A stretch of DNA of 64,000 nt, from NCBI GenBank assembly GCA_027449685.1, contig DAIDLC010000003.1, forward strand, positions 1-64,000, in the 5' to 3' direction. Shown here piece after piece: positions 7,327-24,050 of the stretch. The position numbers and the translations under genes were made by a program. The DNA is from Ferrovaceae bacterium (GTDB lineage: Bacteria > Pseudomonadota > Gammaproteobacteria > Burkholderiales > Ferrovaceae). Each line of letters begins with the position of its first letter. Within the stretch, counting starts at the first letter, position 1. The notes beneath the pieces are model-generated. The model was not told the DNA's origin. It saw only the letters and a program-made list of their open reading frames with translations, and made no database searches.

Positions 7327-9276
7327 TTACTCGCCCAGCCCCATTTGAATATAACCCGTAGGACAAACATCGTGACAGATATGGCAGCCAATACACTTGT
7401 TATAGTCCGTGTCTACATAGCGGCCCACCGTTGATTTGGATTTTGGCACACGAAAGACGGCAGTTTGCGGGCAATAGACCACGCAGTTGTCACATTGGAA
7501 GCACATTCCGCAACTCATGCAACGTTTGGCCTCGGCCACTGCGTCCGCTTCGGAGAGCACATGCAGACGTTCGTCGAAGTTGCCCAGAGCAGTCTCTTTG
7601 CTCAAGGTCGTAACCCCGCGACGACGTCGTGCCACATAACTGAAATGCCCCAAAAACAATTCCTTGTGCGTGATGACATAACGACTCGAGCGATTATCGA
7701 AGTTATGCACCACTGGAGCTTCATCAGTCCCCCTGATCGGTTCTGCCACTGGTTCGATCTTGAGGCCGGACTCCAGCATTTTGCGCATCAGGTCGAAAGT
7801 GTGCACATCGATTTTAGGGCGCTTTTCCAACTCCTCACCGGCCAGAAAACGATCGATTCCTTCGGCAGCAATAGCCCCATGACCGATGGCCGTCGTCAAA
7901 AGATGGGGTCGAATCACATCCCCTCCAGCAAAGACACCGGGTTTTCCCTGAATCTGGTAATTTTTATCGGTGGCGACATTGCCGCGACCACTATCAAATT
8001 CTTCCAGGCCCGAAAAATCCACGGCCTGTCCAATGGCCGATACGATCAAATCCGCAGGGATCTCCTCTTCTGTTCCAGCCACCTGGGTGATTTCCAGGCG
8101 TCCAGACACAAACCTGGCCTGGCATTGAATCACCCGGAGCGCGGTGGCGCGCCCGTCAGAACCGCGGACGATTCCAATGGGAGCCATCCCGCCACGAATG
8201 GCAATCCCTTCTGCCAGCGCCTGCTCGATTTCATGTTTGTTGGCCTGCATCTTGTCCACGGAAAATACCGAGGTCAGTGTGACTTCCGCGCCCTGACGCG
8301 CCGAGATTTCCGCCACATCGTGGGCCATACGCCCGGCAATGGCGCGCTCCGTGTCTACCGGCCGGGCATTTTCGATATGCCCCAGCCGGCGGGCCACAGT
8401 CGCCACATCGATGGAGGTATCGCCGCCTCCCACTACCACCACCCGTTGACCCACATATTTGAGGCGTCCATCATTAAACGCGCGCAAAAAGGCAGTGGCG
8501 GTCACCACGTTGGGTGCTTCTGCCTGTTCGATGGGCAAGGCGCGGCCGGATTGCGCCCCCATGCCGAGAAATACGGCATCGAATTGGGCGCGAATCTCCT
8601 GCAAGGTGATGTCTTTGCCCACGTGACAGTTCAATCGGGTTTGCACGCCCAAATCCAGAATGCGCTGGATTTCCGCATCCAGAACGGCACGCGGGGTACG
8701 AAATCCCGGAATGCCGTAGCGCATCATGCCGCCCAAATGTTCGTGCTCGTCAAAGATAGTGACTGCATGCCCCTTCAGGGCCAGTTGATAGGCGCAGGAT
8801 AATCCGGCAGGTCCGCCCCCCAGAATGGCGATCTTTTTTCCGGTGGATTTTGCTACGGGTTTATACCCAAGATGATTCGCAATGGCGTATTCACCCAGGA
8901 AATGCTCCACAGAGTTGATTCCCACATGGTCTTCCACCTCATTGCGATTGCATCCCGACTCGCAAGGCGCCGGGCACACCCGACCCATGACCGAAGGAAA
9001 CGGATTGGCCTCAGTCAGAACACGCCAGGCAAACTCCTGCCAGAGCATGCCTGCAGGAGGTTTTTCCATTCCCCGGGCTATTTGCAAATAACGCCGGATA
9101 TCTTCCCCAGCGGGACAACTGCCTTGACAGGGAGGGGTAGACTGAATGTAGGTGGGGCATTTGTGGGAGTAGCTGGCCTGAAAGATTTTTTCGCGCAGGG
9201 AATGCGGTTTACTGTCCCCTTCCTTGTAGCGACGGAATGTCAGTTTTTCTTCGCTCGGCGTCAATGTATCAGACAT
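7327..9276 (-). CDS. dsrL: DsrL, iron-sulfur flavoprotein NAD(P)H oxidoreductase
   Basis: 649 aa, close to the known DsrL length. It resembles the small subunit of glutamate synthase. The N-terminal Fe-S part has CQGSC (50-54) and CPAPCESGCN (about 101-110). A FAD-binding Rossmann motif follows (GGGPAGLSCAYQL, about 153), then an NAD(P) motif (VVVGGGDTSIDVA, about 281). A C-terminal two-cluster ferredoxin has CMSCGMCFQCDNC and CIGCHICHDVC. DsrL is the partner of reverse DsrAB in sulfur oxidisers and passes electrons from sulfane-sulfur oxidation to NAD+; its presence is strong evidence for the oxidative direction. A GGAGGAGG site lies upstream. Confidence 0.94.
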   Translation of the reverse strand: MSDTLTPSEEKLTFRRYKEGDSKPHSLREKIFQASYSHKCPTYIQSTPPCQGSCPAGEDIRRYLQIARGMEKPPAGMLWQEFAWRVLTEANPFPSVMGRVCPAPCESGCNRNEVEDHVGINSVEHFLGEYAIANHLGYKPVAKSTGKKIAILGGGPAGLSCAYQLALKGHAVTIFDEHEHLGGMMRYGIPGFRTPRAVLDAEIQRILDLGVQTRLNCHVGKDITLQEIRAQFDAVFLGMGAQSGRALPIEQAEAPNVVTATAFLRAFNDGRLKYVGQRVVVVGGGDTSIDVATVARRLGHIENARPVDTERAIAGRMAHDVAEISARQGAEVTLTSVFSVDKMQANKHEIEQALAEGIAIRGGMAPIGIVRGSDGRATALRVIQCQARFVSGRLEITQVAGTEEEIPADLIVSAIGQAVDFSGLEEFDSGRGNVATDKNYQIQGKPGVFAGGDVIRPHLLTTAIGHGAIAAEGIDRFLAGEELEKRPKIDVHTFDLMRKMLESGLKIEPVAEPIRGTDEAPVVHNFDNRSSRYVITHKELFLGHFSYVARRRRGVTTLSKETALGNFDERLHVLSEADAVAEAKRCMSCGMCFQCDNCVVYCPQTAVFRVPKSKSTVGRYVDTDYNKCIGCHICHDVCPTGYIQMGLGE

Positions 9277-9397
9277 GTAAAACCTCCTCCGGATTCCATT
9301 TTTTGATTGTTTGTGCCAACGTGATTGTGGCTATCAGTTTTGTTGCCGAAATTTCCCGGGTCATTCTTCTTCCAGCGCCAGCACCCGAACAGTCGCT

Positions 9398-10927
9398 CTA
9401 TTCCGGCCTCCCCAACACAATGGCGTTGCTCACCAATTGATGGACACCCCCAACTACCCGCCGGTCAAACTGGTAATAGGGTAATACCTTGCTGAACTGA
9501 GCCTTGCAAATGGCGCAAATCGTCGCCATGAAGTTGACCCCTTGTTCATCTGCCACCTGTTTGAGGGCCTCCATCCGGGGCAAAGCCCCCTTGACCCGCA
9601 GCTCGATGAGGTCATCCGTCAGCAGTCCGCCCCCACCCCCACAACAAAAGGTTTTTTCCCGAATCGTGGCCGCATCCATTTCCACAAATTTATTCGCTAC
9701 CGCACGAATGATGTGACGCGGGATATCGAATTGACCGCCCGCATAATCTCCCATACGGGATCCGCGCGCCACATTGCAGGAGTCATGAAAAGTCACCACA
9801 TACGCATCATTGGCTTCCCGATTGAATTGCAGCGCCTGACGCTGAATCAGGTCCCAGGTGAATTCGCAAATATGCGTGGGCTGCTTGTAACGTGCATCCA
9901 ATTGATGTTGTAACTGCAGGGCGTAGGGATCATGAGCCCCCGCTCCAATCCCCGTCAGCGTGTTCCAGAAGCTGTACGCCACACGCCAGGCATGGCCGCA
10001 TTCACCCACAATGATCCGTTTGACCCCCAGTTCCAGGGCGGCTTCGCGAATCCGCAGGGCAATTTTGCGCAATTGTTCGTAGTTTCCAATGAACATTCCA
10101 AAATTTCCGGCTTCAGAAGCTTTGGTGGAAAGCGTCCAGGAGATACCGGAAGCATGAAATACTTTGGCGTAACCAATCAGGCTATCGATGTGCGGTTCGG
10201 CAAAGAAGTCTGCCGAAGGGGTGATCAGCAACACTTCAGCGCCCTGAACATCGACCGGAAAGCGCACATCCACACCCGTGTCTTCTTTCACATCTTCTTC
10301 CAACCCCAGCAACGTATCTTCCAGAGCGGGGCCCGGCAAACCCAGATTGTTTCCGATGCTATGCACCTTGCCGATGATTTCGTTGGTGTACTTCTGGCCA
10401 TATCCCACGGAATCGAGAATTTCACGGGCAGCCATGGTGATTTCTGCCGTATCGATTCCGTAGGGACAGAACACGGAACAACGGCGACATTCCGAGCATT
10501 GATTGAAATAGGTATACCACTCATCCAGGACCTCTTTGGTCAGGTCCCGGGCGCCCACCAATTTTGGAAAATATTTGCCCGCCAGGGTGAAGTAGCGTCG
10601 ATACACACTGCGCAGGAGATCCTGGCGCGCCACCGGCATGTTTTTGGGATCTTGTGTACCGAGGAAGTAATGGCATTTGTCACTGCACGCCCCGCAATGC
10701 ACACAGGCATCCATGAAGACCCGCAGAGAACGATATTGGCCCAGTAACTGACCCATGCGTTCCAATGCTCTTTCTTTCCAGTCATCCACCAACCGGCCTG
10801 GAAATCCGATGTTGGTCTGGATTTTTTCATTGGCCACAAAGGAACGCACTTGCCCCATGGCTCCGGGTTTTAGCGCCGGAATGATGGGAATGACCCGGTA
10901 GGGTGGTGGTTGCAGGGTATCAGCCAT
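9398..10927 (-). CDS. dsrK: DsrK, HdrD-like catalytic subunit
   Basis: 509 aa from the ATG at 10927 (MADTLQPPP), overlapping the dsrM stop by 8 bases. Two classical [4Fe-4S] motifs are visible: CVHCGACSDKC (75-85) and CSECRRCSVFC (144-154). The C-terminal CCG-type domain includes ECGHAWR and FCCGGGGG, which in HdrB/HdrD relatives hold the non-cubane cluster that reduces disulfides. DsrK is thought to act on the DsrC trisulfide or disulfide on the cytoplasmic face, passing electrons to DsrM. A 121-base non-coding gap separates it from dsrL; I see no gene or clear hairpin there. Confidence 0.94.
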   Translation of the reverse strand: MADTLQPPPYRVIPIIPALKPGAMGQVRSFVANEKIQTNIGFPGRLVDDWKERALERMGQLLGQYRSLRVFMDACVHCGACSDKCHYFLGTQDPKNMPVARQDLLRSVYRRYFTLAGKYFPKLVGARDLTKEVLDEWYTYFNQCSECRRCSVFCPYGIDTAEITMAAREILDSVGYGQKYTNEIIGKVHSIGNNLGLPGPALEDTLLGLEEDVKEDTGVDVRFPVDVQGAEVLLITPSADFFAEPHIDSLIGYAKVFHASGISWTLSTKASEAGNFGMFIGNYEQLRKIALRIREAALELGVKRIIVGECGHAWRVAYSFWNTLTGIGAGAHDPYALQLQHQLDARYKQPTHICEFTWDLIQRQALQFNREANDAYVVTFHDSCNVARGSRMGDYAGGQFDIPRHIIRAVANKFVEMDAATIREKTFCCGGGGGLLTDDLIELRVKGALPRMEALKQVADEQGVNFMATICAICKAQFSKVLPYYQFDRRVVGGVHQLVSNAIVLGRPE

Positions 10928-11648
10928 GAGGAGGTTCCCCGTCCAGCGCTGCAGCCCAGGTCGAAAGATGTCGCGCTTCGCGCGGGTTGTCGATTTGGTT
11001 CCGGGTTGGGGAGAAGAACACTCCCGGAGCATGCAGCAGCTTGCTGAAGGGAAAAATGACGAGCAGCAAAGACGCCAGCGTCAGATGGAGCAGCAAGAGG
11101 CCATTACCAGGAAGCGGCTGCCAATTTCCCTGCAGCAACCCCAGACAAAATGCCTTGACTGCGATGATGTCGGGATGCAACAGAAACTTCAACCCTAGTC
11201 CCGAACCACCGATTGCGAGCAAGAAAAGCAGCATGAGATGGTCGGAGGGCGTGGAAATATAGCGGATGCGTTCAACCAGCAAGCGCCGCCCCCATAGTCC
11301 ACCCAATCCCAGCACCATGGCCATACCGCCGTAGATTCCAAAAGGTTGCATCACAGCTACCCAACCCCAGACGGGTTCTGTGAAATAGCGCAGGTGACGC
11401 ACGATGACCAATACCAAACCCAGGTGAAATAAAACACCAAAAGCCCAAATCCAGAGGTTGGCCTTGAACAGGCTCTCAAACAGCAACACCTCGCGTGCCA
11501 TGCGCAACCACACCCCCGCCAGAGTGACAGGTGCTGGTGTCGTAGGAATTTTCAGCGGCGCTGGCGTACGGGCATATCTGGCGATACGAAAAGCCAGTCC
11601 TCCCACAAACACCAACGCGCCTACACTGAATAACAGCGCAAAGGCCAT
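10920..11648 (-). CDS. dsrM: DsrM, NarI-like cytochrome b subunit
   Basis: 242 aa from the ATG at 11648; a TTG start ten codons upstream would overlap dsrC. Five or so hydrophobic helices are seen, the first at residues 1-20 (MAFALLFSVGALVFVGGLAF). Histidines in helices (for example FHLGLVLVIVRHL) are candidate haem b ligands, as in NarI. DsrM holds two haems b and exchanges electrons between quinone and DsrK. The ribosome site is weak (TCGGGG), and the gene may depend on coupling to dsrC, whose stop is 20 bases upstream. Confidence 0.9.
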   Translation of the reverse strand: MAFALLFSVGALVFVGGLAFRIARYARTPAPLKIPTTPAPVTLAGVWLRMAREVLLFESLFKANLWIWAFGVLFHLGLVLVIVRHLRYFTEPVWGWVAVMQPFGIYGGMAMVLGLGGLWGRRLLVERIRYISTPSDHLMLLFLLAIGGSGLGLKFLLHPDIIAVKAFCLGLLQGNWQPLPGNGLLLLHLTLASLLLVIFPFSKLLHAPGVFFSPTRNQIDNPREARHLSTWAAALDGEPPHG

Positions 11649-11668
11649 GAGAAACCCCGAGGATCGAA

Positions 11669-12004
11669 TCAAACACAACCGGTTGGTTTTGGCAGGCCGG
11701 CTATCTTGCAGGCCTGTTTGGCAGGGCCATAAGGGAACAATTCATACAGGTATTGGCTGTTGCCCTTTTCCGGACCCAGTTTCTTGCCAATGGCTTTGGT
11801 CAGAACACGAACTGCCGGAGCAATTTGATACTCGTCGTAATAGCCGCGCAGAAAATCCACCACTTCCCAATGCTGCTCCGACATGTTCACGTTTTCCGTT
11901 TTGGCGATATATTCCGCAACGTCTTTGTTCCAATCGGCCAGGTTTACCAGATAACCTTCTTCATCGGTTTCGTAGGTCTTTCCATTGACATCAATATTCG
12001 ACAT
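11669..12004 (-). CDS. dsrC: DsrC, sulfur carrier protein
   Basis: 111 aa. This is a bona fide DsrC: the C-terminal arm ends PKPTGCV with Cys110 as penultimate residue (CysA) and has Cys99 in KQACKIAG (CysB), 11 residues apart. Both are needed to form the protein trisulfide that links DsrAB to DsrMKJOP. The N-terminal NGKTYETDEEGYL pattern is also typical. It is placed between dsrH and dsrM as in the Allochromatium operon. Compare the cysteine-free paralogue at 16579-16908, which keeps the same fold pattern. Confidence 0.96.
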   Translation of the reverse strand: MSNIDVNGKTYETDEEGYLVNLADWNKDVAEYIAKTENVNMSEQHWEVVDFLRGYYDEYQIAPAVRVLTKAIGKKLGPEKGNSQYLYELFPYGPAKQACKIAGLPKPTGCV

Positions 12005-12040
12005 GCTGCTCTCTCCTCGTTTATAAACGTACTATTTGCA

Positions 12041-12337
12041 TTACAGCCAGGATTGACTCGTTGCGTTACGCGTGACCAGATCCACAAACCCCCCGTAATC
12101 CACCGCATGGACACCCTCGATAATCTCGGCTCCCACCCCCCGGGCGTCCAGATCCGGTTGCAGCACATGGATGTTGAACCGCTCCAGGGCCGCTTTGATC
12201 AGAGACTCCAGAGCCGTACCCGGGGTGGCCGCATACACCGCATCTTCGATCAGCAAAACGTCTCCGCCCTGAGCCATTCGAAAACAAGTTGCCAATGTTT
12301 CATGTCCAAAAGGAGATTTGTTGATGATATGTAACAT
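12041..12337 (-). CDS. dsrH: DsrH, subunit of the DsrEFH sulfurtransferase
   Basis: 98 aa, beginning MLHIINKSPF as TusB/DsrH proteins do. DsrH forms the alpha2-beta2-gamma2 hexamer with DsrE and DsrF that passes persulfide sulfur from TusA to DsrC. Its single cysteine, Cys18 (ATCFRMAQGGD), is near the position conserved in DsrH. It follows dsrF by 12 bases and precedes dsrC by 36 bases; a GAGGAA site lies upstream. Confidence 0.92.
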   Translation of the reverse strand: MLHIINKSPFGHETLATCFRMAQGGDVLLIEDAVYAATPGTALESLIKAALERFNIHVLQPDLDARGVGAEIIEGVHAVDYGGFVDLVTRNATSQSWL

Positions 12338-12349
12338 GTCCCGCGTTCC

Positions 12350-12721
12350 TCAAAAGCTCAGGATGACATCCTGTTCGTCCATCAAGGCCCCCATGGCCGC
12401 ACTATCCAACACCGTGACTTCCACCAGAAGATCTTCTTCTGTCAGTCCACGCCGCTGGAGAGACTCCTTTTCCACGTACAGCTTTTCGATGTCGTAGCCT
12501 TCCAAGGCCCGAAACGTGGGGGAAAAGTTTTTGGTCTCGATCCCCTTGGTTTGCTGTCCCTTACGCAACTGATACACCCCGTCGTCCACAAAAACCAACG
12601 ACACGTCCTGATCGAAAGCCGCAGTGATCAAAACCACCTCCAGTGCTTCCAGCGCGTAGACCGTTCCGTAGGGCGCCTTGCGGTTGACGAACATGAACTT
12701 CTTGATATTGTCTTCGCTCAT
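12350..12721 (-). CDS. dsrF: DsrF, subunit of the DsrEFH sulfurtransferase
   Basis: 123 aa. It matches the TusC/DsrF family in length and pattern (KKFMFVNRKAPYGTVYALEALEV near the N-terminus, then VFVDDGVYQL). It has no catalytic cysteine, which fits a structural subunit of the DsrEFH hexamer. It lies nine bases after dsrE and 12 bases before dsrH, so the three subunits are made from one message. Confidence 0.92.
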   Translation of the reverse strand: MSEDNIKKFMFVNRKAPYGTVYALEALEVVLITAAFDQDVSLVFVDDGVYQLRKGQQTKGIETKNFSPTFRALEGYDIEKLYVEKESLQRRGLTEEDLLVEVTVLDSAAMGALMDEQDVILSF

Positions 12722-12730
12722 GGGTGTTCC

Positions 12731-13090
12731 TCAATCCCCGAAAGTAACCAGACGATCGGCCTGAATTCCGGCTTCAACCAACTGCCCTAGCCCGGAAATC
12801 CGGAAACCAGGAGCCAGGTTTTCATCCTTGATGCCACGACGCAAAGCGGCCGCCACACAAACCACCAAATCCAGATGGTGTGTCTCTGCCAACTTGCTCC
12901 ACCGCAGCACGACATTACGGTCATCCTGCGGAGGTTCCGTCAGACGGGAAGCATTGTTGACGCCATCATGATAAAAAAACACCCGGAAGATCTCGTGTCC
13001 CTTTTCCAGTGCCGCCTTACAAAACAAATAGGCGCTGTCACTAGCCTGATGCTGGTAAGGCCCTTCATTGATAAGGATTCCCAATTTCAT
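12731..13090 (-). CDS. dsrE: DsrE, catalytic subunit of the DsrEFH sulfurtransferase
   Basis: 119 aa. Cys78 (LDLVVCVAAALRRGI) lies in the conserved TusD/DsrE active-site context; the equivalent Allochromatium residue, also Cys78, carries the persulfide. The presence of this cysteine plus DsrF and DsrH points to a working relay from TusA to DsrC. The only other cysteine is Cys24. It follows dsrB by 11 bases. Confidence 0.94.
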   Translation of the reverse strand: MKLGILINEGPYQHQASDSAYLFCKAALEKGHEIFRVFFYHDGVNNASRLTEPPQDDRNVVLRWSKLAETHHLDLVVCVAAALRRGIKDENLAPGFRISGLGQLVEAGIQADRLVTFGD

Positions 13091-13101
13091 GCTGCCCTCT
13101 G

Positions 13102-14178
13102 TCAGAAACGGATATGGGCCGAAGCGTTCAGGTTGGCACGTGAGCCACGCCAGTCATCGATCAGATACTTGGTGAAAGGTAGCTCGGTCAATTCGAAAAA
13201 CCGTGGCCAGCCAATACGCTCGATCCAGTCGGACAGGCGCTCCCAGCTGCGGGCATCATCCTTGTACACATGAAGAATTTTTTTCACCACAGCACCCACT
13301 TCCGTCCAGCGCGGTGGATTGTTGGGCAGTCCGGAGGCCACCATTTTCATGAAGGTCGGTTTGGCACGCGCATTGGAATTTTTCCCGCCCACCCAAATGG
13401 CGATCTTGGAATGCTCGGGATCATTGATCTGCATGGGAGGACACGGGGGATAGCAGGCCCCGCAGCACACACATTTCTCTTCATCCACTTCCAGAGAGGG
13501 CTTGCCGTTGACCATGGCCGGCCGGATGGCCGCCACAGGGCAACGCGCCACGACGGCAGGGCGCTCGCACACGTTAGCTACCAGATCGTGGTTGATTTTG
13601 GGGGGCTTGGTATGCTGAATGATGATGGCAATGTCCGCCTGACCCCCGCAATTGATTTCACAACAGGAGGTGGACAAATGCACTCGGTTGGGCATTTCTT
13701 CGCGGCGAAACTCGTGAATCAATTCGTCCATGAGGGATTTCACCACACCCGAGGCATCAGTGCCGGGAATATCGCAGTGCAGCCAGCCTTGCGTATGGGC
13801 AATCATGGAAATGGAATTACCTGTTCCACCCACCGGAAAGCCGTTGCTTTCCAACTCGTTGATCAGGGGGGCCACCTTGGCCTCGCTCGACACCATGAAT
13901 TCGATGTTGGAGCGAATGGTAAAGCGCACATGCCCTTCCGCAAAACGATCGGCGATATCACACAACTTGCGGATGGTATAAACATCCATTTGCCGTTGCG
14001 TTCCCGCACGCACCGACCAGACCTGATCACCTGTCCAGGAGACATGATGCAAGACCCCCGGTCTGGGCCGGTCGTGATACTTCCAGTTTCCATAATTTTT
14101 GAGCAGGGTCGGATGCAAATATTGCTTGTTATCCGGCACACCGGATTCCACAGGACGACGCATTTGGGGTTGGCTCAC
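13102..14178 (-). CDS. dsrB: DsrB, reverse dissimilatory sulfite reductase beta subunit
   Basis: 358 aa, with a GTG start at 14178 preceded by GGAGGAGAG; the start lies two bases after the dsrA stop, so translation is probably coupled. Siroheme-[4Fe-4S] type cysteines are seen at STSCCEINCGG (Cys172, 173, 177) with Cys135 upstream. A ferredoxin-like insert has VCERPAVVARC (204-213) and CVCCGACYPPC (236-246). With DsrA it forms the alpha2-beta2 enzyme that here works in the oxidising direction, persulfide to sulfite. Direction is inferred from dsrL and dsrEFH in the same cluster. Confidence 0.96.
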   Translation of the reverse strand: MSQPQMRRPVESGVPDNKQYLHPTLLKNYGNWKYHDRPRPGVLHHVSWTGDQVWSVRAGTQRQMDVYTIRKLCDIADRFAEGHVRFTIRSNIEFMVSSEAKVAPLINELESNGFPVGGTGNSISMIAHTQGWLHCDIPGTDASGVVKSLMDELIHEFRREEMPNRVHLSTSCCEINCGGQADIAIIIQHTKPPKINHDLVANVCERPAVVARCPVAAIRPAMVNGKPSLEVDEEKCVCCGACYPPCPPMQINDPEHSKIAIWVGGKNSNARAKPTFMKMVASGLPNNPPRWTEVGAVVKKILHVYKDDARSWERLSDWIERIGWPRFFELTELPFTKYLIDDWRGSRANLNASAHIRF

Positions 14179-14180
14179 TT

Positions 14181-15485
14181 TTACTCTCCTCCAGCAGCCC
14201 GTTTTTTGGCATTGATCTTGGCAACTTCTTCATCCCACCCATCGGTACGCACATAGGGATTCATGCGGGGTGAATTCACCATATTGGGATCCACATCCAG
14301 CTCCATGGCCTCCAGGAATGTTACCAGACCGATACGCTCGATCATTTCACCGGTGCGCTCATGTTCCAGGGCATTTTCCGCAAAGAAATCGATGATCTTC
14401 TGGGCCAGTTCCTTCAGCTTTTCGAAATCTTCATCCGTCTCCAGTTTCATGAAAGGTACTACCACGGTCCCCATGAGATCACCGATCTTGAGCGTGCGCT
14501 TACCACCCACCAGAATGGTGATCCCTTTGTCGGCTCCGGTAGCCAAGGCTCCGGTCATGACATTTATGCATTGCATACAGCGCACACAGCTTTTGTTGTC
14601 GATTTCCAGGCATTGCTGATCATTGAGCTCCACGGAAGAAAAGTGGCCGTCCGTTCGTCCCTGACCCGCGTCCCGGATGCGCAACGCGTTGGTGGGGCAA
14701 CGGGTCACCACAGAGTCCACCAGTTCATTCAGGCCGTGCTTTTGAAACCAGGCGCGTCCCATGGCGTGATCGGTGCGAATGTTGTCGCGCCAGGTTCCGA
14801 TGATGGACATATCTGCACGCTGTATGGAATTCATGCAGTCGTTGGGACAACCAGAAAACTTGAATTTGAACTTGTAGGGCAACGAGGGCCGATGAATGTC
14901 GTCCGTAAAGGTATTGACCACTTCACGATGCGCCCTGGCCTCATCAAAGCAGGATTGCTCACACCGGGCACTGCCCACGCACGACATGGCGGTGCGCACT
15001 GCCGGGCCTGCCCCCCCCAGATCGAAACCCAGCTCGTTGATCTCATCAAAAGCCTTTTGCACGTTTTCGGTCGTGGCCCCCTGAAACATGATATCGCCCG
15101 ACTGGCCATGAAAGGCAATCAAACCGGAGCCGTTGCGCTCCCAGATGTCGCACATCTTGCGCAAAATATCCGTGTTGTAATGCATGCCGGGTGGGGGCAT
15201 GACACGCAAGGTATGAAATTCGGCAGCGTCTTTGTACAGGGGCTCGCCATTTTCATCCTTGAGTTCGGTAAAGCGTGGAATGACTCCCCCGCCATAGCCA
15301 AACACACCCACGGTCCCGCCTTTCCAATAGCCCTTCTTGGTCTGGTAGGAAGTTTCGAGCTGCCCCAGCAAATCCACCATTTGGTCCTTGTCTTTTGCCA
15401 GGCGTTTGAGACCTGTCACAAAACTGGGCCAGGGTCCTGACTCCAGTTGATCCAGGTTGGGTGTGTCGTGCATTTTTTTGGCCAT
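14181..15485 (-). CDS. dsrA: DsrA, reverse dissimilatory sulfite reductase alpha subunit
   Basis: 434 aa from the ATG at 15485 (MAKKMHDTPN), which has a strong AAGGAGG site; the longer frame upstream lacks one. The siroheme-bound [4Fe-4S] ligands are readable as C169-x5-C175 (CVGSARC) and C213-x3-C217 (CPNDC). A ferredoxin domain has CVRCMQC (300-306) with Cys263 in RCPTNALRI. It is the first gene of the minus-strand dsr run, so the 213-base region upstream should hold the main promoter. Confidence 0.96.
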   Translation of the reverse strand: MAKKMHDTPNLDQLESGPWPSFVTGLKRLAKDKDQMVDLLGQLETSYQTKKGYWKGGTVGVFGYGGGVIPRFTELKDENGEPLYKDAAEFHTLRVMPPPGMHYNTDILRKMCDIWERNGSGLIAFHGQSGDIMFQGATTENVQKAFDEINELGFDLGGAGPAVRTAMSCVGSARCEQSCFDEARAHREVVNTFTDDIHRPSLPYKFKFKFSGCPNDCMNSIQRADMSIIGTWRDNIRTDHAMGRAWFQKHGLNELVDSVVTRCPTNALRIRDAGQGRTDGHFSSVELNDQQCLEIDNKSCVRCMQCINVMTGALATGADKGITILVGGKRTLKIGDLMGTVVVPFMKLETDEDFEKLKELAQKIIDFFAENALEHERTGEMIERIGLVTFLEAMELDVDPNMVNSPRMNPYVRTDGWDEEVAKINAKKRAAGGE

Positions 15486-15698
15486 TTTTCCTCCTTGCGA
15501 TGGGTACCACCCGCCCTGCGGGATGAGCATCCTGAATCTTTATGTGGAAATCGATTCGAATGATTTATAGTTGTATGCCATGATCACCGAACTTCGATGG
15601 ACTTTAAATAACCCCAATGGGGGGGGGAACCCTGCCCGATGGGTTACAAAATCTCTCCCCACGAGAGGCTATAGACGCATTTATCAGGAATCGTAAAC
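15486..15698. promoter_or_regulatory. Divergent control region between dsrA and the Cas6-like cluster
   Basis: 213 bases between two outward-facing runs. For dsrA, a possible sigma-70 pair on the minus strand is TTCGGT (15586-15591) and TATAAA (15564-15569) with a 16-base spacer. The leader contains a small hairpin CCCGC-CCT-GCGGG at 15511-15523, just upstream of the ribosome site. For the plus strand I see a CTCTC/GAGAG hairpin at 15653-15667 and a TATAGA box at 15670-15675 but no well-spaced -35. A run of nine G at about 15619-15627 is notable. No operator could be assigned with confidence. Confidence 0.45.
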
Positions 15699-15914
15699 AT
15701 GGCAGACATTCTGCAACTGGCAACATTGACCATTCCCTTGGGGCAACAGGAAATCCAGGTGCAACAAATTGAACATGTGGAGGGGGGCATGCCCTTGTTA
15801 CGGCTACGCATTCGTGAAGGAAAACGCTTCACCATCTTCGATATGGACGCAGTGAGCGCCAAGACTCTCGGTGCGGTGATGCAGCAATGGGCGCATGATC
15901 AAGGGCACGGATAG
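15699..15914 (+). CDS. Small conserved-looking protein of unknown function
   Basis: 71 aa, starting MADILQLATLTIPL after an AGGAAT site. It contains a strongly patterned segment (PLLRLRIREGKRFTIFDMD, residues 31-49) that looks like a beta-strand pair and is rich in Arg/Lys, followed by an amphipathic helix. It has no cysteine, no signal and no membrane segment. I do not recognise the family. It is the first gene facing away from dsrA, and its stop lies one base before the chosen start of the Cas6-like gene, so the two are surely co-translated. It may be a partner of the proteins in this cluster. Confidence 0.7.
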   Translation: MADILQLATLTIPLGQQEIQVQQIEHVEGGMPLLRLRIREGKRFTIFDMDAVSAKTLGAVMQQWAHDQGHG

Positions 15915-15915
15915 C

Positions 15916-16518
15916 ATGCACACTGCGCCCCCTCTCATGACCGACCTGGCTTTTTCCGTGGCCGGAAATTTTCTGCGCGCAGGTCATGAGCGTCCGCTCT
16001 GGAACGCCCTTGTGACTCATCTGTCGTGGTTGGAACAGTCTCCTCATAGTGGCGTGATCCCTCTGCGAGGACGTGAAAATCAGGATGGAATCTGGTTGCC
16101 GCGGCGCACCAAACTGATTTTACGCATTCCGGCCGCGCGGGTTTCCGAAACATTGGGTCTGTCCGGGAAAATCCTGGCATGGGACCAGACGACTCTGGAG
16201 ATTGGCCCAGGCAGCCTGCGTCCCTTGATACCCCATCCCGCTCTCCATGCCCATCTGGTGGTCAGTGCGGATGACGAACCCGGGTTTCTGGCCAGCGTTC
16301 AGATGGCCCTGGGTGCGCTGGAAATCCAGGCCCAGTGGATTTGTGGTCGGCGCCAGGTGCTGGATGCTTACGATCCGGCAATTTCCGGCTACAGTTTGGT
16401 CCTACATCATCTGGGCCCAGAACAATCCCTGCAGATCCAGAGTCTGGGTCTGGGCGAACATCGTTCTTTAGGCTGTGGCCTGTTCGTTCCCTACAAGGTC
16501 ATCCCTGATCTGGAATGA
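15916..16518 (+). CDS. Stand-alone Cas6/Cmx6-like RAMP-fold protein
   Basis: 200 aa from the ATG at 15916; starts at 15895 and 15937 are possible and none has a strong ribosome site. The C-terminus has the glycine-rich loop of Cas6 proteins, GLGEHRSLGCGLF at residues 178-190 (G-x-G-x2-R-x2-G-x-G). The pattern SGVIPLRGRENQDGIW, then TKLILRIP and LGLSGKIL, fits the type I-MYXAN Cas6/Cmx6 family as I recall it. His24 (RAGHERPLW) is where that family keeps a conserved N-terminal histidine. Cas6 proteins cut CRISPR precursor RNA, yet no other cas gene or array is in the window, and its neighbours are sulfur-carrier genes. It may bind or cut another RNA, or use the fold otherwise. The family call needs a profile search. 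Confidence 0.7.
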   Translation: MHTAPPLMTDLAFSVAGNFLRAGHERPLWNALVTHLSWLEQSPHSGVIPLRGRENQDGIWLPRRTKLILRIPAARVSETLGLSGKILAWDQTTLEIGPGSLRPLIPHPALHAHLVVSADDEPGFLASVQMALGALEIQAQWICGRRQVLDAYDPAISGYSLVLHHLGPEQSLQIQSLGLGEHRSLGCGLFVPYKVIPDLE

Positions 16519-16578
16519 CCCTCAGCGCCTTGCATTCACTCACGGCCCATTCACAAGCAAACCAAGGAGGAAAGTCTC

Positions 16579-16908
16579 ATGCCCTACATTGTCAATGACG
16601 TCGCACTGGAATGCGATGAGGAAGGGTATCTGCTGGAACCCAACTACGAAGATGACACCGTGGCGGTCATCGCGGCCGCAGAAAACGTTTCCCTGACGCC
16701 AACCCATTGGCTCATCATTCAATACCTGCGCGATGTGTTTCGCGAAGAGGGAAAAACCCCAAATTTTCGCAACATGCTCAAGGATATCCAGGAGTTCATG
16801 CCTGAGGCGGATAGCAAGTTTCTCTACGATCTGTTCCCCATTGGACCTGCGAAGCAGGCGGTGAAAATTGCCGGTTTACCCAAACCTTTTGGCAAAGGAG
16901 GTTACTGA
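16579..16908 (+). CDS. DsrC/TusE-like protein lacking both redox cysteines
   Basis: 109 aa with a strong AAGGAGGAAA site. It shares the DsrC layout with the true DsrC at 11669-12004: an N-terminal DEEGYL, a central HWxxIxYLR, then LYDLFPIGPAKQA-KIAGLPKP. CysB is replaced by Val95 (KQAVKIAG), and the C-terminal CysA arm is replaced by FGKGGY. The only cysteine, Cys12, is outside the arm. It therefore cannot carry sulfur as DsrC does. Similar cysteine-less members have been proposed to be regulatory (Rsp-type proteins, from memory). It is separated by 60 bases from the Cas6-like gene and by two bases from the tandem TusA gene. Confidence 0.88.
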   Translation: MPYIVNDVALECDEEGYLLEPNYEDDTVAVIAAAENVSLTPTHWLIIQYLRDVFREEGKTPNFRNMLKDIQEFMPEADSKFLYDLFPIGPAKQAVKIAGLPKPFGKGGY

Positions 16909-16910
16909 AC

Positions 16911-17396
16911 ATGAATCAAACAACCGCCACCCATCAGGTTTTTCTTGACCTGAAGGGATTGACCTGTCCTGGCCCTCTGCTCGGAGCCAAACGGATGGTG
17001 GACCTGCTAGAACCCGGCCAAATCCTGTTACTGGTTTCCGATTGCCCCGGAACCCACGATGATCTACTCTCCTGGGCACGCCAAACGGGCAACCAGTTGC
17101 TGCGCTCGGAAAAGCAACCTGATGGGGCCAATGGCTATTTCATCCAGAAGGGGGCGGCACAAGAGCCGCACGCCCATGTCACCCTGGACATTCGTGGTGT
17201 GAGCTGCCCGGGCCCCATTGTGGAAGCCAAGAAACTCCTCAATGGCATGAAACCGGGCGAGGTCTTGAAACTCATCAGCAATTGCCCCGGCATTCGCTCC
17301 GATCTGGGTGGTTGGGTTCAGGCCACTCACATGACGCTAGTCAACACCACTGAAATCGCTGCAGGTGAGTTTGCGTTCTTCATCCGCAAGGGGTGA
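16911..17396 (+). CDS. Tandem TusA-domain protein (two sulfurtransferase domains)
   Basis: 161 aa containing two TusA repeats: residues 8-79 with LTCPGP (Cys19) and residues 89-160 with VSCPGP (Cys99). Each also has a second conserved-looking cysteine in SDCPG (Cys45) and SNCPG (Cys125). TusA accepts persulfide sulfur on the CPxP cysteine and hands it to DsrEFH or other acceptors. Single-domain TusA proteins are about 75 aa (one is at 21141-21368), so this is an internal duplication or fusion. The ribosome site AAAGGAGGT is inside the end of the upstream cysteine-less DsrC gene, which suggests equal expression of the two. Confidence 0.9.
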   Translation: MNQTTATHQVFLDLKGLTCPGPLLGAKRMVDLLEPGQILLLVSDCPGTHDDLLSWARQTGNQLLRSEKQPDGANGYFIQKGAAQEPHAHVTLDIRGVSCPGPIVEAKKLLNGMKPGEVLKLISNCPGIRSDLGGWVQATHMTLVNTTEIAAGEFAFFIRKG

Positions 17397-17399
17397 TTC

Positions 17400-17999
17400 A
17401 TGCGTTTGAGAAGCCAATGGTTTCAGAATGCACAGCCCAGAACCCCCGAGGAACGGGCTGGCGCCGTGGCTGTCATGGCCTGGAAAATCGCCCAAAACGC
17501 CCTTAAAAACACACGCCGGGCCAATTTCCAACTGGAGGTTGGCGCGCCCTATTTGGCCTTTCTACAAGAGTTTCTGTTTTTCCTGATTCAAGTGGCCGAT
17601 CGACTGGTCTATGCACAAGCCCATTGGAACGTACGGGTTACGTTCACCAGCACCCTGGCCCACCGCCTGGCCGATTTGATGGCAGACAACCAAAGTACTT
17701 TGCTGGGCGCAGACCCTGTACGCATCAAGGCAGAATTCATTCGCTTGCTCAATGAACGAAGCGAGCATTACGCCGAATTCGAATTCGACCTGCAAAAGGG
17801 TCACTTTGGCTTCATTCGTTATCTGGGATCCACCCTGCAGCCCGTCATGCGCGGCTCGGATCAAGCCTGGATCATGGACTACATCATGCAACGTGAAGCG
17901 CCTGAAGCCATCGATCATCTGCAAAAAGCCGTCACGCGTCTGTTTGATGAGACGCCACGTCAACGTCGCGTGCGAGGCCCGGTCATCGGCCCCGAATGA
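17400..17999 (+). CDS. Helical protein of unknown function in the sulfur cluster
   Basis: 199 aa. The start lies three bases after the tandem TusA stop with an AAGGGGTG site. The sequence looks all-helical, with long amphipathic stretches (for example residues 50-70, YLAFLQEFLFFLIQVADRL) and paired acidic and histidine residues such as HWNV (75-78), SEHYAEFEFD (121-130) and KGHF (133-136) that could hold metal or simply stabilise a bundle. It has no cysteine, signal peptide or clear transmembrane segment; one hydrophobic helix could pack in a bundle. I do not recognise a family. Tight linkage makes it part of the same functional set as the Cas6-like, DsrC-like and TusA-TusA proteins. Confidence 0.75.
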   Translation: MRLRSQWFQNAQPRTPEERAGAVAVMAWKIAQNALKNTRRANFQLEVGAPYLAFLQEFLFFLIQVADRLVYAQAHWNVRVTFTSTLAHRLADLMADNQSTLLGADPVRIKAEFIRLLNERSEHYAEFEFDLQKGHFGFIRYLGSTLQPVMRGSDQAWIMDYIMQREAPEAIDHLQKAVTRLFDETPRQRRVRGPVIGPE

Positions 18000-18074
18000 T
18001 CGTCAAAAGCCCCGGCGTCAAGGCGCGCGCCTGCCCTGTGATGTGGATTGAAGCGTTTTACTGGAATTTTCCCA

Positions 18075-18995
18075 ATGGACAACCAGCCCCCAGATCCTGA
18101 TTCCCCCTTCCATTTACTCAATGACAAGACTTGGCGACGCTGGCGCGAGCAAAAACTGGACCTGCAACCTCGCTCGCAAGAGGAGTTGCTGGTCCCCATA
18201 CAGAACCCGCGGCAATTAACGCCCGCCGAACGGGCCGCAGTCCATGCACGGGTCGCGCGCTGTAACATGGCCGTTTATGTGAGCCCCCCATTGCAGGAAG
18301 ACCCGAATGTACTCACAGAACTGGGGGCCCAGTTTGGTCTGGTCCATCTGGATGCCAACTGGTTGGCCGAGGAAGACGGTATCTCCAGCATCCGGGTACA
18401 AGATCAGGGTACCCGCAAAGCCTACATTCCGTATACCAACCAACCCATCAAATGGCACACAGACGGTTATTACAATCCGCCAGAACGCAAGATTTGCGCC
18501 ATGATCCTGCATTGTGTGCAAAACGCCCGTCAGGGCGGACATAACCGCCTGATGGACCCTGAACTGGTCTATCTTCAATTACGCGAACAGAATCCGGACT
18601 ACATTCGCGCCCTCATGGCTGCGGATGCCTTGCTCATTCCCGAGCGGGTTGATGCGCTGGATGGCATTCGCCCCGCGCAAAGTGGGCCTGTTTTTTCAGT
18701 GCTGGACAACGGCCAGTTACACATGCGCTACACGGCACGCACCCGCAGCATCGCCTGGAAACAGGATCCCCTCACCCGAAGTGCCGTCGCTGCTCTGGAG
18801 GCCCTTCTGGCCAACCCCGCCCCGCTGGGATTCCAGCTACTACTGGAACCCGGTATGGGCCTGTTATGCAACAACGTCCTGCATGATCGCAGCGCCTTCA
18901 CCGATGATCCCTCCCACCCGCGGTTACTGTATCGTGCCCGTTACCTGGAGCGCATCCAGCCCGAAGCAAGTGCGCCACCAGCACCGCGGGCATAG
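18075..18995 (+). CDS. TauD/TfdA-like Fe(II)/2-oxoglutarate dioxygenase
   Basis: 306 aa from the ATG at 18075; a TTG nine codons upstream is possible. The facial triad is visible: His128 and Asp130 in KWHTDGYY, and His270 in NNVLHDRSAF, with arginines at 287 and 289 suited to bind 2-oxoglutarate. Such enzymes hydroxylate small molecules such as taurine or other sulfonates. The residues around HTDGYYNP are close to a subgroup that I cannot tie to a known substrate. It is 75 bases after the 199-aa gene, so it may be the last gene of that operon or have its own start. The terminator at 19001-19021 ends this direction and the convergent porin gene. Confidence 0.8.
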   Translation: MDNQPPDPDSPFHLLNDKTWRRWREQKLDLQPRSQEELLVPIQNPRQLTPAERAAVHARVARCNMAVYVSPPLQEDPNVLTELGAQFGLVHLDANWLAEEDGISSIRVQDQGTRKAYIPYTNQPIKWHTDGYYNPPERKICAMILHCVQNARQGGHNRLMDPELVYLQLREQNPDYIRALMAADALLIPERVDALDGIRPAQSGPVFSVLDNGQLHMRYTARTRSIAWKQDPLTRSAVAALEALLANPAPLGFQLLLEPGMGLLCNNVLHDRSAFTDDPSHPRLLYRARYLERIQPEASAPPAPRA

Positions 18996-20520: not shown

Positions 20521-20985
20521 TCAAACAAACAGGCAGATATCGGTATCGCCAGCAAACTCCATGAAAGTTGCCGCTCCTCCAAACTCGATTTGCTCGATGA
20601 AATCAGACTTGTCGAATTCGAACAGATCCACGGTCATTTGGCAGGCAATGAATTTCACATCCGCTTCCAGACAAAGCGCACGCAACTCTTCCAGGGAGGC
20701 AACGCCTTTCTTCTTCAGTTTGTCCTTCATCATCAGGGTGGCCATGGTTTCCATGCCGGGTAACATTTGCACCATCACCGGCATGGGGATGGGCATGGGC
20801 ATGGCCGGATTGGCTAAGGGGCTGATTTTGACGTCGGAAAGATCCTTGCGCAGCAGTTGCAACCCGTAAAATGTAAAAAACACCTGCACGTCATACCCGA
20901 GAGCGGCAGCAGTAGAAGCCAGGATAAACGGCGGGTAAGCCATATCCAGCGTCCCCTTGGTGGCGATGATGGCCATTTTTTTCAT
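20521..20985 (-). CDS. dsrE2: DsrE2-type sulfur-trafficking protein
   Basis: 154 aa. The DsrE/F-like fold is suggested by MKKMAIIATKGTLDMAYPPFILA at the start and a conserved cysteine, Cys115 in KFIACQMTVDLFEF. The central segment (60-86) is remarkably rich in Met and Pro (PAMPMPIPMP), a feature of DsrE2 proteins that may contact a membrane. Rhodanese, TusA and DsrE2 are encoded together in many sulfur oxidisers; in Allochromatium this trio passes sulfur toward DsrEFH. It is 155 bases downstream of tusA with its own GGGAGAG site. Confidence 0.88.
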   Translation of the reverse strand: MKKMAIIATKGTLDMAYPPFILASTAAALGYDVQVFFTFYGLQLLRKDLSDVKISPLANPAMPMPIPMPVMVQMLPGMETMATLMMKDKLKKKGVASLEELRALCLEADVKFIACQMTVDLFEFDKSDFIEQIEFGGAATFMEFAGDTDICLFV

Positions 20986-21140
20986 GCGGAACTCTCCCTC
21001 GAAATTAACACGTCAACAATATCCGGGATAACCATCGAAACGACCAATGATGTCGTCTCACGAGAAGCTACACAGATCATGCCACCGGGCCACTGCCCAG
21101 CCGTGCGTTGAAATCTGTTCGCAACCCCGTTAAAACGGGA

Positions 21141-21368
21141 TCATTTCTTTTGGAGGAAAAAGGTGTATTCGCCCCCCGCCTCCTGGGTAGAGAGCAATGT
21201 ATTTCCCGTTTGATTGGAAAACGCCTGCATATCCTTGACCGACCCGCAATCGGTGGAGACCACCCGCAGCACCTGACCAGAGGTCATGTCCGCCAGTGAT
21301 TTTTTCGTCTTCAAGATGGGCAAGGGGCAATTCAATCCTCGGGCATCGAGCTCTTTGTCAACCTGCAT
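21141..21368 (-). CDS. tusA: TusA sulfur-carrier protein
   Basis: 75 aa, the standard single-domain length. The CPLP active-site motif (Cys14 in RGLNCPLPILK) sits at the start of helix 1, and STDCGS near residue 40 matches the family. It is a central persulfide carrier that receives sulfur from rhodanese and passes it to DsrE2 or DsrEFH. The ribosome site AAGGAG is good. A weak hairpin (CCCGT/ACGGG, 21126-21139) follows the stop. Confidence 0.93.
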   Translation of the reverse strand: MQVDKELDARGLNCPLPILKTKKSLADMTSGQVLRVVSTDCGSVKDMQAFSNQTGNTLLSTQEAGGEYTFFLQKK

Positions 21369-21529
21369 AAAGTTTAACTCCTTGTTTTATATGTATTTTT
21401 ATAATATCGATGGGAACGAAGTCACGCCAACGGGCTCGTTCACCATTACGAATAATTATGAGCTTTCAGTCTATAGCACCCAAGAGTTATGAGAAATAAC
21501 CCATTGGAGTTAGCCCGATGCTTTGGCGA

Positions 21530-21916
21530 TTACGATTGCACCCAGGGAAGGCCCTCGTGACGCCACCCGTTGACGGCATTTCGATGATGCCGTGAGTCCA
21601 GATCGCCCTCAAAGCCGTGCAGAACGTTATAAACCTGTTCCAATCCTGCTGCCTTCAGGGCGTTTCCGGCGTCCACAGAACGGCTTCCGGAACGACAGAT
21701 CAACACCACTGGCCGATGCGCACTGGCCAGTTTGCGCACCTGCGCCACAAAATTAGGATTCAATTCCCAATCCGGGCCATCGATCCAGGGAATCCATACA
21801 GCTCCCTCCGGATGGCCCACAAACATGTACTCCATTTCGCTGCGGACATCCACAAATACGGCTTCCGGGTGCTCATCCAGAAAAACCTTGGCTTCCTTGG
21901 GGGAAAAATGCTGCAT
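21530..21916 (-). CDS. Rhodanese-domain sulfurtransferase
   Basis: 128 aa from the ATG at 21916 (MQHFSPKEAK), with GGAG upstream. It is a single rhodanese domain with VDVRSEMEY (22-30) and the active-site loop CRSGSRS, whose Cys74 is the only cysteine in the protein. It is likely to mobilise sulfane sulfur (thiosulfate, GSSH) onto TusA. The gene order rhd-tusA-dsrE2 is a known module of sulfur oxidisers. The 161 bases before tusA include an AT-rich segment (TATATGTATTTTTATAAT, 21389-21406) that may hold the tusA promoter. Confidence 0.9.
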   Translation of the reverse strand: MQHFSPKEAKVFLDEHPEAVFVDVRSEMEYMFVGHPEGAVWIPWIDGPDWELNPNFVAQVRKLASAHRPVVLICRSGSRSVDAGNALKAAGLEQVYNVLHGFEGDLDSRHHRNAVNGWRHEGLPWVQS

Positions 21917-22030
21917 CTCGATACTCCATACGCCGATTGAATGTGTGTGCCAGACGGACCCCACCCCTCACTACCAACCTTCGACGTGGGGATATTAGCC
22001 TGGGGCCATTTGGGTGTGTAGAGCAAATGT

Positions 22031-23383
22031 ATGCCTGACAAGACGTTTCCGCAAGCACAAAACCCGGTTGCGGGATGGCTGCGAGGAGACTACTCCGCAT
22101 GGGCAATGACTTGTGTTATTCTCGGCGAGACCGGAACGGAAAGATTTTCGTACTCCGTTGCGCTGGAATCTGCCCTTGGCAGATTCTCCAAGAACTCACA
22201 AGCCTGGGAGAGAATCCTGAACAACCCCCATGCCATGACCGTCGTGATCGATCCGCCCCAGCGCACGCTTGGGACCGAAGCGCCTTCCTTGGCGCCCGAG
22301 CAATCCCTCGCCAATTTGCTCAACGGATTTCTGGACACCATCGTCCGGATGACCGGGGCACGTGCGGGTGCCATTCGCTTTTTATCAGACAGCGCCCACA
22401 AGAACGAACTGGCCCTGGGAGCCAGTTATGCCCTCCCGCAAGAAATCATGCGCTGTGAGTCCTGCGTCCCTCTAACCTGTGGCGTGTGCGGACAAGCGGC
22501 CGTAACCGGGAAAATATCCGCCACTTCTAGCAGCTACTGCGCCCAGCGCAGTGGTGAAGACTTTTTTGCCGAAGATTGCCTGGGCGTAGTTGCCATCCCT
22601 TTGGACTTTGGCAACCATTGCCTGGGCGTGTTCACACTGTTTTTCGAAACCGAACGAGCGCTTGACGAAAGAACCCAACAACTCTTGACCGCCTATGCCG
22701 ACTTGATCGGGCAATCGTTAAACCATGCGCGACTGACTCAGGAAAATCAGCGCATCAACCTGATGGCGGAACGCCAGGCCATTGCCAATGAAATTCACGA
22801 TAGCCTGTCACAAACCCTCTTTTATGCCCGACTTCGCATGAGCGTTCTGAACGAAGCCCTGCATTCCGGCCAGTTGGAACAGGCCAATGACTGCGTCAGT
22901 GATCTGGGGGAGGCCCTGAACCAAGCCCAGAAATCGGTGCGTGATCTGATCACCCATTTCCGCAGCCCCATGGACCCATTGGGATTACACCACGCCTTGC
23001 AGATGCTCATCGAAGGCCTCAAGGTACGCTCCTCCATCACGTTCGACTTTCAGCATCCACGCCAGCAAGCCGAATTAACCCTGGAACAGGAATTGCAGGT
23101 CTTTCATATTTTACGGGAAGCACTTCATAATATCGCCACCCATTCCCAAGCCACCTGGGCGCACCTGGTCATTTCTCACGAACCCGGTAGCGTCCAGTTT
23201 CTGGTCACCGATAATGGGATCGGCATGGATCAACCTTTTTCGCCCATTGGACACTATGGGCTCACCATCATGCATGAACGGGCCCGACGCATCGGAGCCG
23301 TACTGGATATTCATACGGCTGCCGACGTGGGTACCCAAATTACCCTGACTTTGCCCATCTCCCGGTCCTCCATCCATGAATAA
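22031..23383 (+). CDS. Soluble NarX-type sensor histidine kinase with Cys-rich GAF domain
   Basis: 450 aa; the start is uncertain because the ribosome site is weak. Domain order: an N-terminal region of about 85 residues, a GAF domain at roughly 90-235, a HisKA_3 dimerisation domain with His256 in NEIHDSLSQ, and a HATPase domain with [12 protein letters not shown] (361-372) and TDNGIG (393-398). There are no membrane helices, so the signal is cytoplasmic. The GAF domain has C142-x2-C145-x4-C150-x2-C153 and Cys170, 183 and 197, suitable for an Fe-S cluster or thiol redox sensing. It overlaps the response-regulator gene by 8 bases. It lies back to back with the rhodanese gene, so it may control sulfur or redox genes. 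Confidence 0.88.
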
Positions 23384-24050
23384 CCTCCCTCCCCCTATCC
23401 GTGTCGCTTTGGTAGATGACCACGGCCTTTGCCGGCGCGGTCTGACCGAATTGCTCACCAACCGTTACGGCATTGAAGTGGTGGGAGCCACAGATAGCCC
23501 GGTAGAACTGGATGCCCTTCTGGTGGATCACCATCCCGACTTGGTCGTCATGGATTTGCGCATGGACCCGCTCAGCGGACTGCAGTTGCTGGATAAAATC
23601 CGCAAGGACGGGCATGACACACCCGTGGTCATCCTTACCATGAGCGATACCGAATCCGATCTGGCTTCAGCCCTGCGGGCTGGCGTGCGCGGATATCTGC
23701 TCAAAGACATGGCCCCGGATGATGTGGTGGACGGCATTCGGCGCGTTGCCGCCGGAGAAATGGTCGTGGCCCCCTCCATGACCATGAAGATGATTGGAAT
23801 ATTGCAAAAAGGGAACACCCGGGAAGATTATCAAAACTCCTTGCGCCAACTCACGGAACGAGAGCGGGAGATATTGGAATTGCTGGCCAACGGCAGTAGC
23901 AACAAAGCCATCGCACGCACCTTGGGCATCAGCAATGACACCGTCAAGCAACATGTACGCCACATTCTCAACAAGCTCAATCTCAGTTCCCGGGTAGAGG
24001 CTGCGGTATTGTTTGCGGTGGAACGCAACACCCAGAACCGAGGCAACTAA
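23376..24050 (+). CDS. NarL/FixJ-family response regulator
   Basis: 224 aa. The receiver domain has the acidic pair Asp14-Asp15 and phospho-acceptor Asp60 (VVMDLRMD). The C-terminal LuxR-type HTH starts [15 protein letters not shown] and ends with [16 protein letters not shown], a typical NarL DNA-binding helix. It is translationally coupled to the kinase gene, so they form one two-component system. Targets are not visible; candidates are the adjacent sulfur genes. Confidence 0.93.

Follow-up and report, generated by a model that had tools for sequence, protein, structure and literature searches.

The window, a stretch of 64,000 nucleotides from a Ferrovaceae bacterium, carries a reverse Dsr operon transcribed leftwards and, diverging from it, a run of rightwards-transcribed genes that we designate A to F. 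The features of this locus are as follows:

7327–14178, minus strand: dsrB, dsrE, dsrF, dsrH, dsrC, dsrM, dsrK and dsrL, the remaining dsr operon genes visible in the window
14181–15530, minus strand: dsrA, heading the divergent dsr operon
15609–15622, no strand: degenerate copy of an ACCC-N4-GGGT palindrome (TAACCCCAATGGGG), candidate operator
15699–15914, plus strand: gene A, a DUF6967 protein (PF22295) of 71 residues, found mostly in the window's order (Burkholderiales)
15916–16518, plus strand: gene B, a non-CRISPR Cas6/Cmx6-family protein (PF09559, TIGR02807) whose conserved domain starts at 15937, with AGH at the presumed catalytic His site and a glycine-rich loop (GLGEHRSLGCGLFVPYK)
16579–16908, plus strand: gene C, a DsrC-family paralogue with the arm cysteines missing and the C-terminus GLPKPFGKGGY
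16911–17396, plus strand: gene D, a double TusA; a two-domain rhodanese occupies this slot in many other genomes
17400–17999, plus strand: gene E, a six-helix protein of 199 residues, linked to dsr throughout the class, that has neither a family nor a solved relative
18048–18995, plus strand: gene F, a TauD/gamma-butyrobetaine-type Fe(II)/2-oxoglutarate oxygenase with intact HxD...H ligands, in the conserved cluster

An earlier sequence-only reading described A to E as five tightly packed plus-strand genes diverging from the minus-strand dsrA, and the open reading frame positions and the gaps of 1, 60, 2 and 3 bases are confirmed. The cluster should extend to F, which begins 48 bases after E, is conserved together with A–E and belongs with them as a sixth gene. 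The open reading frame of A lies where that reading placed it, but its product, taken there for an unknown, belongs to a known family, DUF6967 (Pfam, E 1.1e-26). Pfam finds two TusA domains in D, as had been proposed, and the description of E as a helical protein of 199 residues also holds, with a confident six-helix model (pLDDT 91.8), no family matched in Pfam, NCBIfam or further searches, and no structural relatives among solved or viral structures. The HxD...H iron ligands are intact in F, which is probably an active oxygenase.

The central protein of the cluster, B, is labelled Cas6/Cmx6 in databases, and its Cas6-like character, previously suggested from the sequence, is borne out by profile and structure. 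B matches PF09559 with an E-value of 1.2e-48 (166 bits, cut-off 26.7) and scores 133.8 bits to TIGR02807 against a cut-off of 98.85, which places it by curated cut-off in the same family as type I-MYXAN Cas6/Cmx6. The AlphaFold model (pLDDT 94.5) has the same double ferredoxin-like fold as the Cas6 of a type I-B CAST (PDB 8fcj/8fcu), with 8fcu_B as the best PDB match (TM 0.88). Scored against both Cas6 models and unrelated ferredoxin-like folds, a comparison proposed by that earlier reading, B fits Cas6 far better (4e-15), and non-Cas6 ferredoxin folds (RRM) match the model only at about 1e-3.

Seven CRISPR-linked Cmx6 proteins (from cyanobacterial plasmids, six of them encoded beside cas3) share 27–35% identity with B, and CRISPR-linked relatives of B adjoin cas3 and cmx8. 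The dsr-linked B proteins are monophyletic and split from these seven with a branch support of 100/99, the outgroup being small. The glycine-rich loop is shared with CRISPR Cas6/Cmx6 and, together with R63, is kept in 98–100% of the dsr-linked B proteins. The His site is shared by most members: the residue aligned with the His of LxADHxxxL in CRISPR Cmx6, which we take to be catalytic from general Cas6 biochemistry, is His in 62 of 75 B proteins, and has been lost in one clade of dsr-linked B, the sister clade of the window, in which it is Tyr or Asn; the loop and, outside this clade, the DH active-site motif are 83–100% kept. In contrast to CRISPR Cmx6, B is neutral rather than basic (median pI 6.4, versus 9.3–9.6), is present as a single copy, is usually located at dsr, and has new invariant residues; nine of 13 conserved basic columns have been lost and six others gained, and E114, R57 and K187 are clade-specific invariant gains. 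Because the active-site elements are kept and the basic columns replaced, the active-site geometry appears to be under selection and the outer surface rebuilt, and B may now bind either RNA, by a different mode of recognition, or a protein. That B is a genuine Cas6-family protein, domesticated, non-CRISPR and single-copy, is well supported.

Co-occurrence of the five genes in other genomes had been set in advance as the point on which the sequence-only reading could fall, and it is strong in the order, in the class and among GTDB contigs. PF09559 is present in 36 of 200 genomes of the order, at one copy each, and its neighbours in every one of the 36 are dsrA and the other cluster genes, so that chance does not account for the arrangement. 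With weak matches (E near 1e-4) left out, dsrB is found in 40 of the same 200 genomes, and B is present in 36 of these 40 and in none of the other 160. Across the class sample (n=369) PF09559 occurs in 118 genomes, dsrB in 120 and both in 111 (Fisher p 9e-74), with seven genomes having B only, nine dsr only and 242 neither. A profile built for E detects it in 116 genomes of this sample, 110 with dsrB and six without, and B or E is found in 115 of the 120 genomes with dsr. The phylum sample (n=349), used to gauge spread beyond the class, added three further genomes, all from the window's own order. Among 80 GTDB contigs retrieved via B, mostly from Gallionella, Sideroxydans, Sulfuricella and relatives, dsr adjoins B in 78, and the remaining two are short contigs.

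In 33 of 39 class-level B loci dsrA lies inside the 13–14 kb stretch; the exceptions are L109, L124–L126, L133 and L138, of which L133, from an apparent B-only genome, is cut by the contig end beside F. In genomes from outside the order, F, B, C and E, divergent from dsrAB, are the genes kept most constantly, and A is largely limited to the window's order. The module is also kept in five genomes of only 1.0–1.1 Mb. Eight dsr loci without B were retrieved, six of them on contigs ending at or near dsrA, where the module may merely be unassembled. The other two, L232 (genome G083) and L233 (genome G132), are intact dsr loci that lack B yet have A, D and E, and B is thus not always needed; the two represent natural B-deletion lineages. 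It is well supported that the module is an accessory to the oxidative (reverse) Dsr pathway and was passed on together with dsr across the Gammaproteobacteria including Burkholderiales. That it belongs to this pathway, with B operating outside CRISPR, can hardly be doubted.

C belongs to the DsrC family (Pfam E 4.6e-29; TIGR03342 94.2 bits versus 53.5), shares 45% identity with the dsrC product of the same locus, and retains the DsrC/TusE body and GLPKP arm. Where DsrC ends in G-C-V or G-C-I, C ends in K-G-G-Y, a terminus two residues longer and near invariant across the class. Loss of both redox cysteines, as first read from the window, is correct there and holds only in part class-wide: none of the 67 C proteins has the C-terminal (penultimate) Cys, and the second arm Cys is lacking in 62 of 67, with Cys retained in L042, L052, L053, L058 and L059. 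Cysteine-free DsrC paralogues have been noted before, under the name RspA, and C, which lacks the arm cysteines in an organism with dsrAB, may be one of them. In Allochromatium vinosum the penultimate Cys of DsrC is the sulfur-binding site and is needed for DsrEFH binding (PMC3397948). Lacking this residue, C cannot carry sulfur at its tail, and its sequence points most naturally to a part in docking or sensing. C also matches a phage DsrC-like family, but by tblastn only two phage records match.

D shares the CPxP site of TusA, and differs from it in having two fused domains, both of which carry an additional invariant Cys (CPGP...CPG); the pair of CPGP motifs and the two further cysteines, one per domain, are present in 14 of 14 relatives. 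The single TusA elsewhere in the window differs from D. It belongs to a group of minus-strand genes at 20521–21964 (DsrE2, single TusA and rhodanese) that continue the sulfur locus, and close relatives share a syntenic TusA-DsrE2-porin block. In many genomes the place of D is taken by a two-domain rhodanese (SseA-like, with rhodanese domains and a cysteine loop), which is unrelated to TusA yet swapped with it at the same locus, and the slot is empty in a few. Since D is exchangeable for a rhodanese, the slot requires a sulfurtransferase but no particular one. The double carrier, previously proposed as part of the design, is therefore non-essential.

The intergenic region between dsrA and the module contains an ACCC-N4-GGGT palindrome in 62 of 141 loci, compared with 0.6 in shuffled sequences, and it is the best of 3328 palindromes, although the palindrome-bearing loci are related by descent and the count overstates their independence. 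Nearly all of these loci are of the A type. The 4-base spacer resembles that of CRP/FNR-type sites. The palindrome suggests that the divergent dsr and Cas6-module operons are jointly controlled by some DNA-binding protein. No conserved RNA element was seen in the divergent intergenic region, an Rfam scan of the locus gave no match, and the palindrome looks like a DNA operator; the reading of the promoter as an RNA element was set aside.

Within the dsr operons the dsrC-dsrM junction has a strong stem-loop in most cases (mean z -1.53, n=119), and is the only clearly structured dsr junction among those tested in quantity; the stem-loop could make the dsrC transcript more stable or cause its partial termination. 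It was seen in L032–L065 and L099–L137, with no common sequence noticed, and is absent where the gap is short, as the gap is in the window (about 11650–11669). Loci with the hairpin tend to have the catalytic His in B (odds ratio 14). Cleavage of this hairpin by B was nevertheless rejected: on the dsrA tree the His-hairpin pattern is largely that of one clade, the genomes of ~1 Mb have the His without the hairpin, and L233, without B, has the hairpin.

We tentatively favour, at somewhat less than even confidence, a mechanism in which the module would be a regulatory device for dsr that acts on RNA and stands outside catalysis proper. C, with the DsrC body and arm but K-G-G-Y in place of the sulfur-bearing Cys, would dock without turning over, and so could fill the positions on DsrAB, DsrEFH or DsrK at which DsrC docks. 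The sulfurtransferase, whether double TusA or rhodanese, would report the supply of sulfane sulfur, and B would act on RNA, most likely the transcripts of both divergent operons, tuning dsr expression to sulfur flux. The earlier proposal of a sensor or regulator of sulfur flux, acting for instance on dsr transcripts, withstood both comparisons by which it could have fallen and is partly supported. The linkage to dsr, divergence parallel to that of dsrA, retention in the ~1 Mb genomes without Cas1, the Cas6 fold of B with its kept loop, R63 and His, the KGGY end of C, the interchange of sulfurtransferases and the shared palindrome promoter count for a regulator. Against action on RNA count the lost basic character of B, the Tyr or Asn of the sister clade, the lack of an RNA element or Rfam match, the dsrC-dsrM hairpin that stands in a locus without B, and the two dsr loci that have A, D and E but no B. 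What tips the balance towards an RNA-acting regulator is the conservation of the Cas6 active-site elements. The fuller evolutionary proposal, in which a single domestication of a CRISPR RNA-processing protein, in the ancestor of the gammaproteobacterial sulfur oxidisers, gave rise to an RNA-acting dsr regulator that takes its cues from a cysteine-free DsrC and a sulfurtransferase, is more speculative, and we regard it as rather less likely than not.

Ranked close behind, because the basic surface of B is lost, is a gate or assembly factor working at the level of protein and without RNA, in which the Cas6 fold would serve as an adaptor for C and E, and the resulting complex would regulate DsrAB or the DsrEFH-DsrC relay or help to assemble them. 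The clade-specific gains of E114, R57 and K187, the GLPKP arm retained in C, and a strict tie to dsr and not to any RNA gene all speak for such a gate. A mere scaffold, however, would not need the kept glycine-rich loop, or the DH motif kept outside the one clade, and we consider the gate possible, with a little less confidence than the RNA-acting regulator.

That the genes form a loose neighbourhood without joint function, comprising a sulfonate oxygenase (F), a sulfurtransferase (D) and a spare DsrC, is improbable. F, A and D do vary or move among lineages, and E sometimes sits some genes away from B. Against this, B, C and E are found together beside dsr class-wide, and their pairwise divergence tracks that of dsrA (Mantel r 0.67 for B, 0.81 for C and 0.73 for E; 0 of 999 permutations as high). 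The tight, operon-like packing of the genes also argues against unconnected genes.

The homology of DsrC, DsrEFH and TusA to TusE, TusBCD and TusA of the tRNA 2-thiouridine relay (PMC3397948), and the position of the sulfurtransferase slot next to an RNA-protein family, would fit a Tus-like branch for RNA thiolation, with TusA or rhodanese as sulfur donor and B as RNA binder. Most C proteins have no Cys with which to hand on sulfur, however, the conserved cluster showed neither a thiouridylase nor any other nucleotide-activating enzyme, and the module is tied strictly to dissimilatory dsr and not found in all bacteria, which makes this account very improbable.

A CRISPR Cas6 acting in trans, and beside dsr by chance, is scarcely credible, even though B passes the curated Cmx6 cut-off and Cas1 is present somewhere in 33 of 76 tested B-bearing genomes. 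Cas1 is absent from the other 43, including all five genomes of ~1 Mb and the window's own genome (83% complete). Unlike a type I-MYXAN CRISPR-Cas system, B has no cas family among the identified conserved neighbours and no CRISPR array in the window. The absence of Cas1, the separate branch and the co-occurrence with dsr together refute action in trans as the general explanation. That the module is a viral set of auxiliary genes was also rejected, as no relative of B was found on a viral contig.

Much of the microbial oxidation of sulfur in sediments, oxygen-minimum zones and animal symbioses runs through the reverse Dsr pathway, whose genes are generally regarded as known. The module's divergent neighbour is the operon described as dsrABEFHCMKLJOPNRS in A. 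vinosum; the module is absent from the dsr genes described for that organism, which is reported to have four further DsrC-family genes without an assigned role (PMC3368242). No known system joins the parts found here, and every part except E is in a known family. A literature search for dsr-linked or orphan Cas6 proteins returned no description, subscription papers lying outside the search and a mention elsewhere being possible. The module is as constant as the pathway itself, is retained even at a genome size of about 1 Mb, and has seemingly been hidden behind a CRISPR label. The near-universal presence of this cluster beside dsr suggests that a major step of the sulfur cycle has a control or accessory component so far unrecognised. 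If the account given here is true, sulfur oxidation gains parts that had been missing, there is a clear case of Cas6 outside CRISPR, and Cas6 calls in organisms with dsr should not be counted as CRISPR.

Other genes are found repeatedly around the module. Across the wider class its surroundings include additional 2-oxoglutarate Fe(II) oxygenases (PF13640, one PKHD-type) and DUF6866 proteins (L103:7553–8422, L105:9354–9965 and relatives), together with a module-associated family of about 200 residues downstream of C (L103:8292–8912) and another of about 290 residues directly upstream of B (L135:4399–5274). In the window the DsrE2, TusA and rhodanese block is followed on the plus strand by a sensor kinase and a response regulator (22031–24050), and a tandem repeat with a 36-base spacing lies within apparent coding sequence at 46583–46762.
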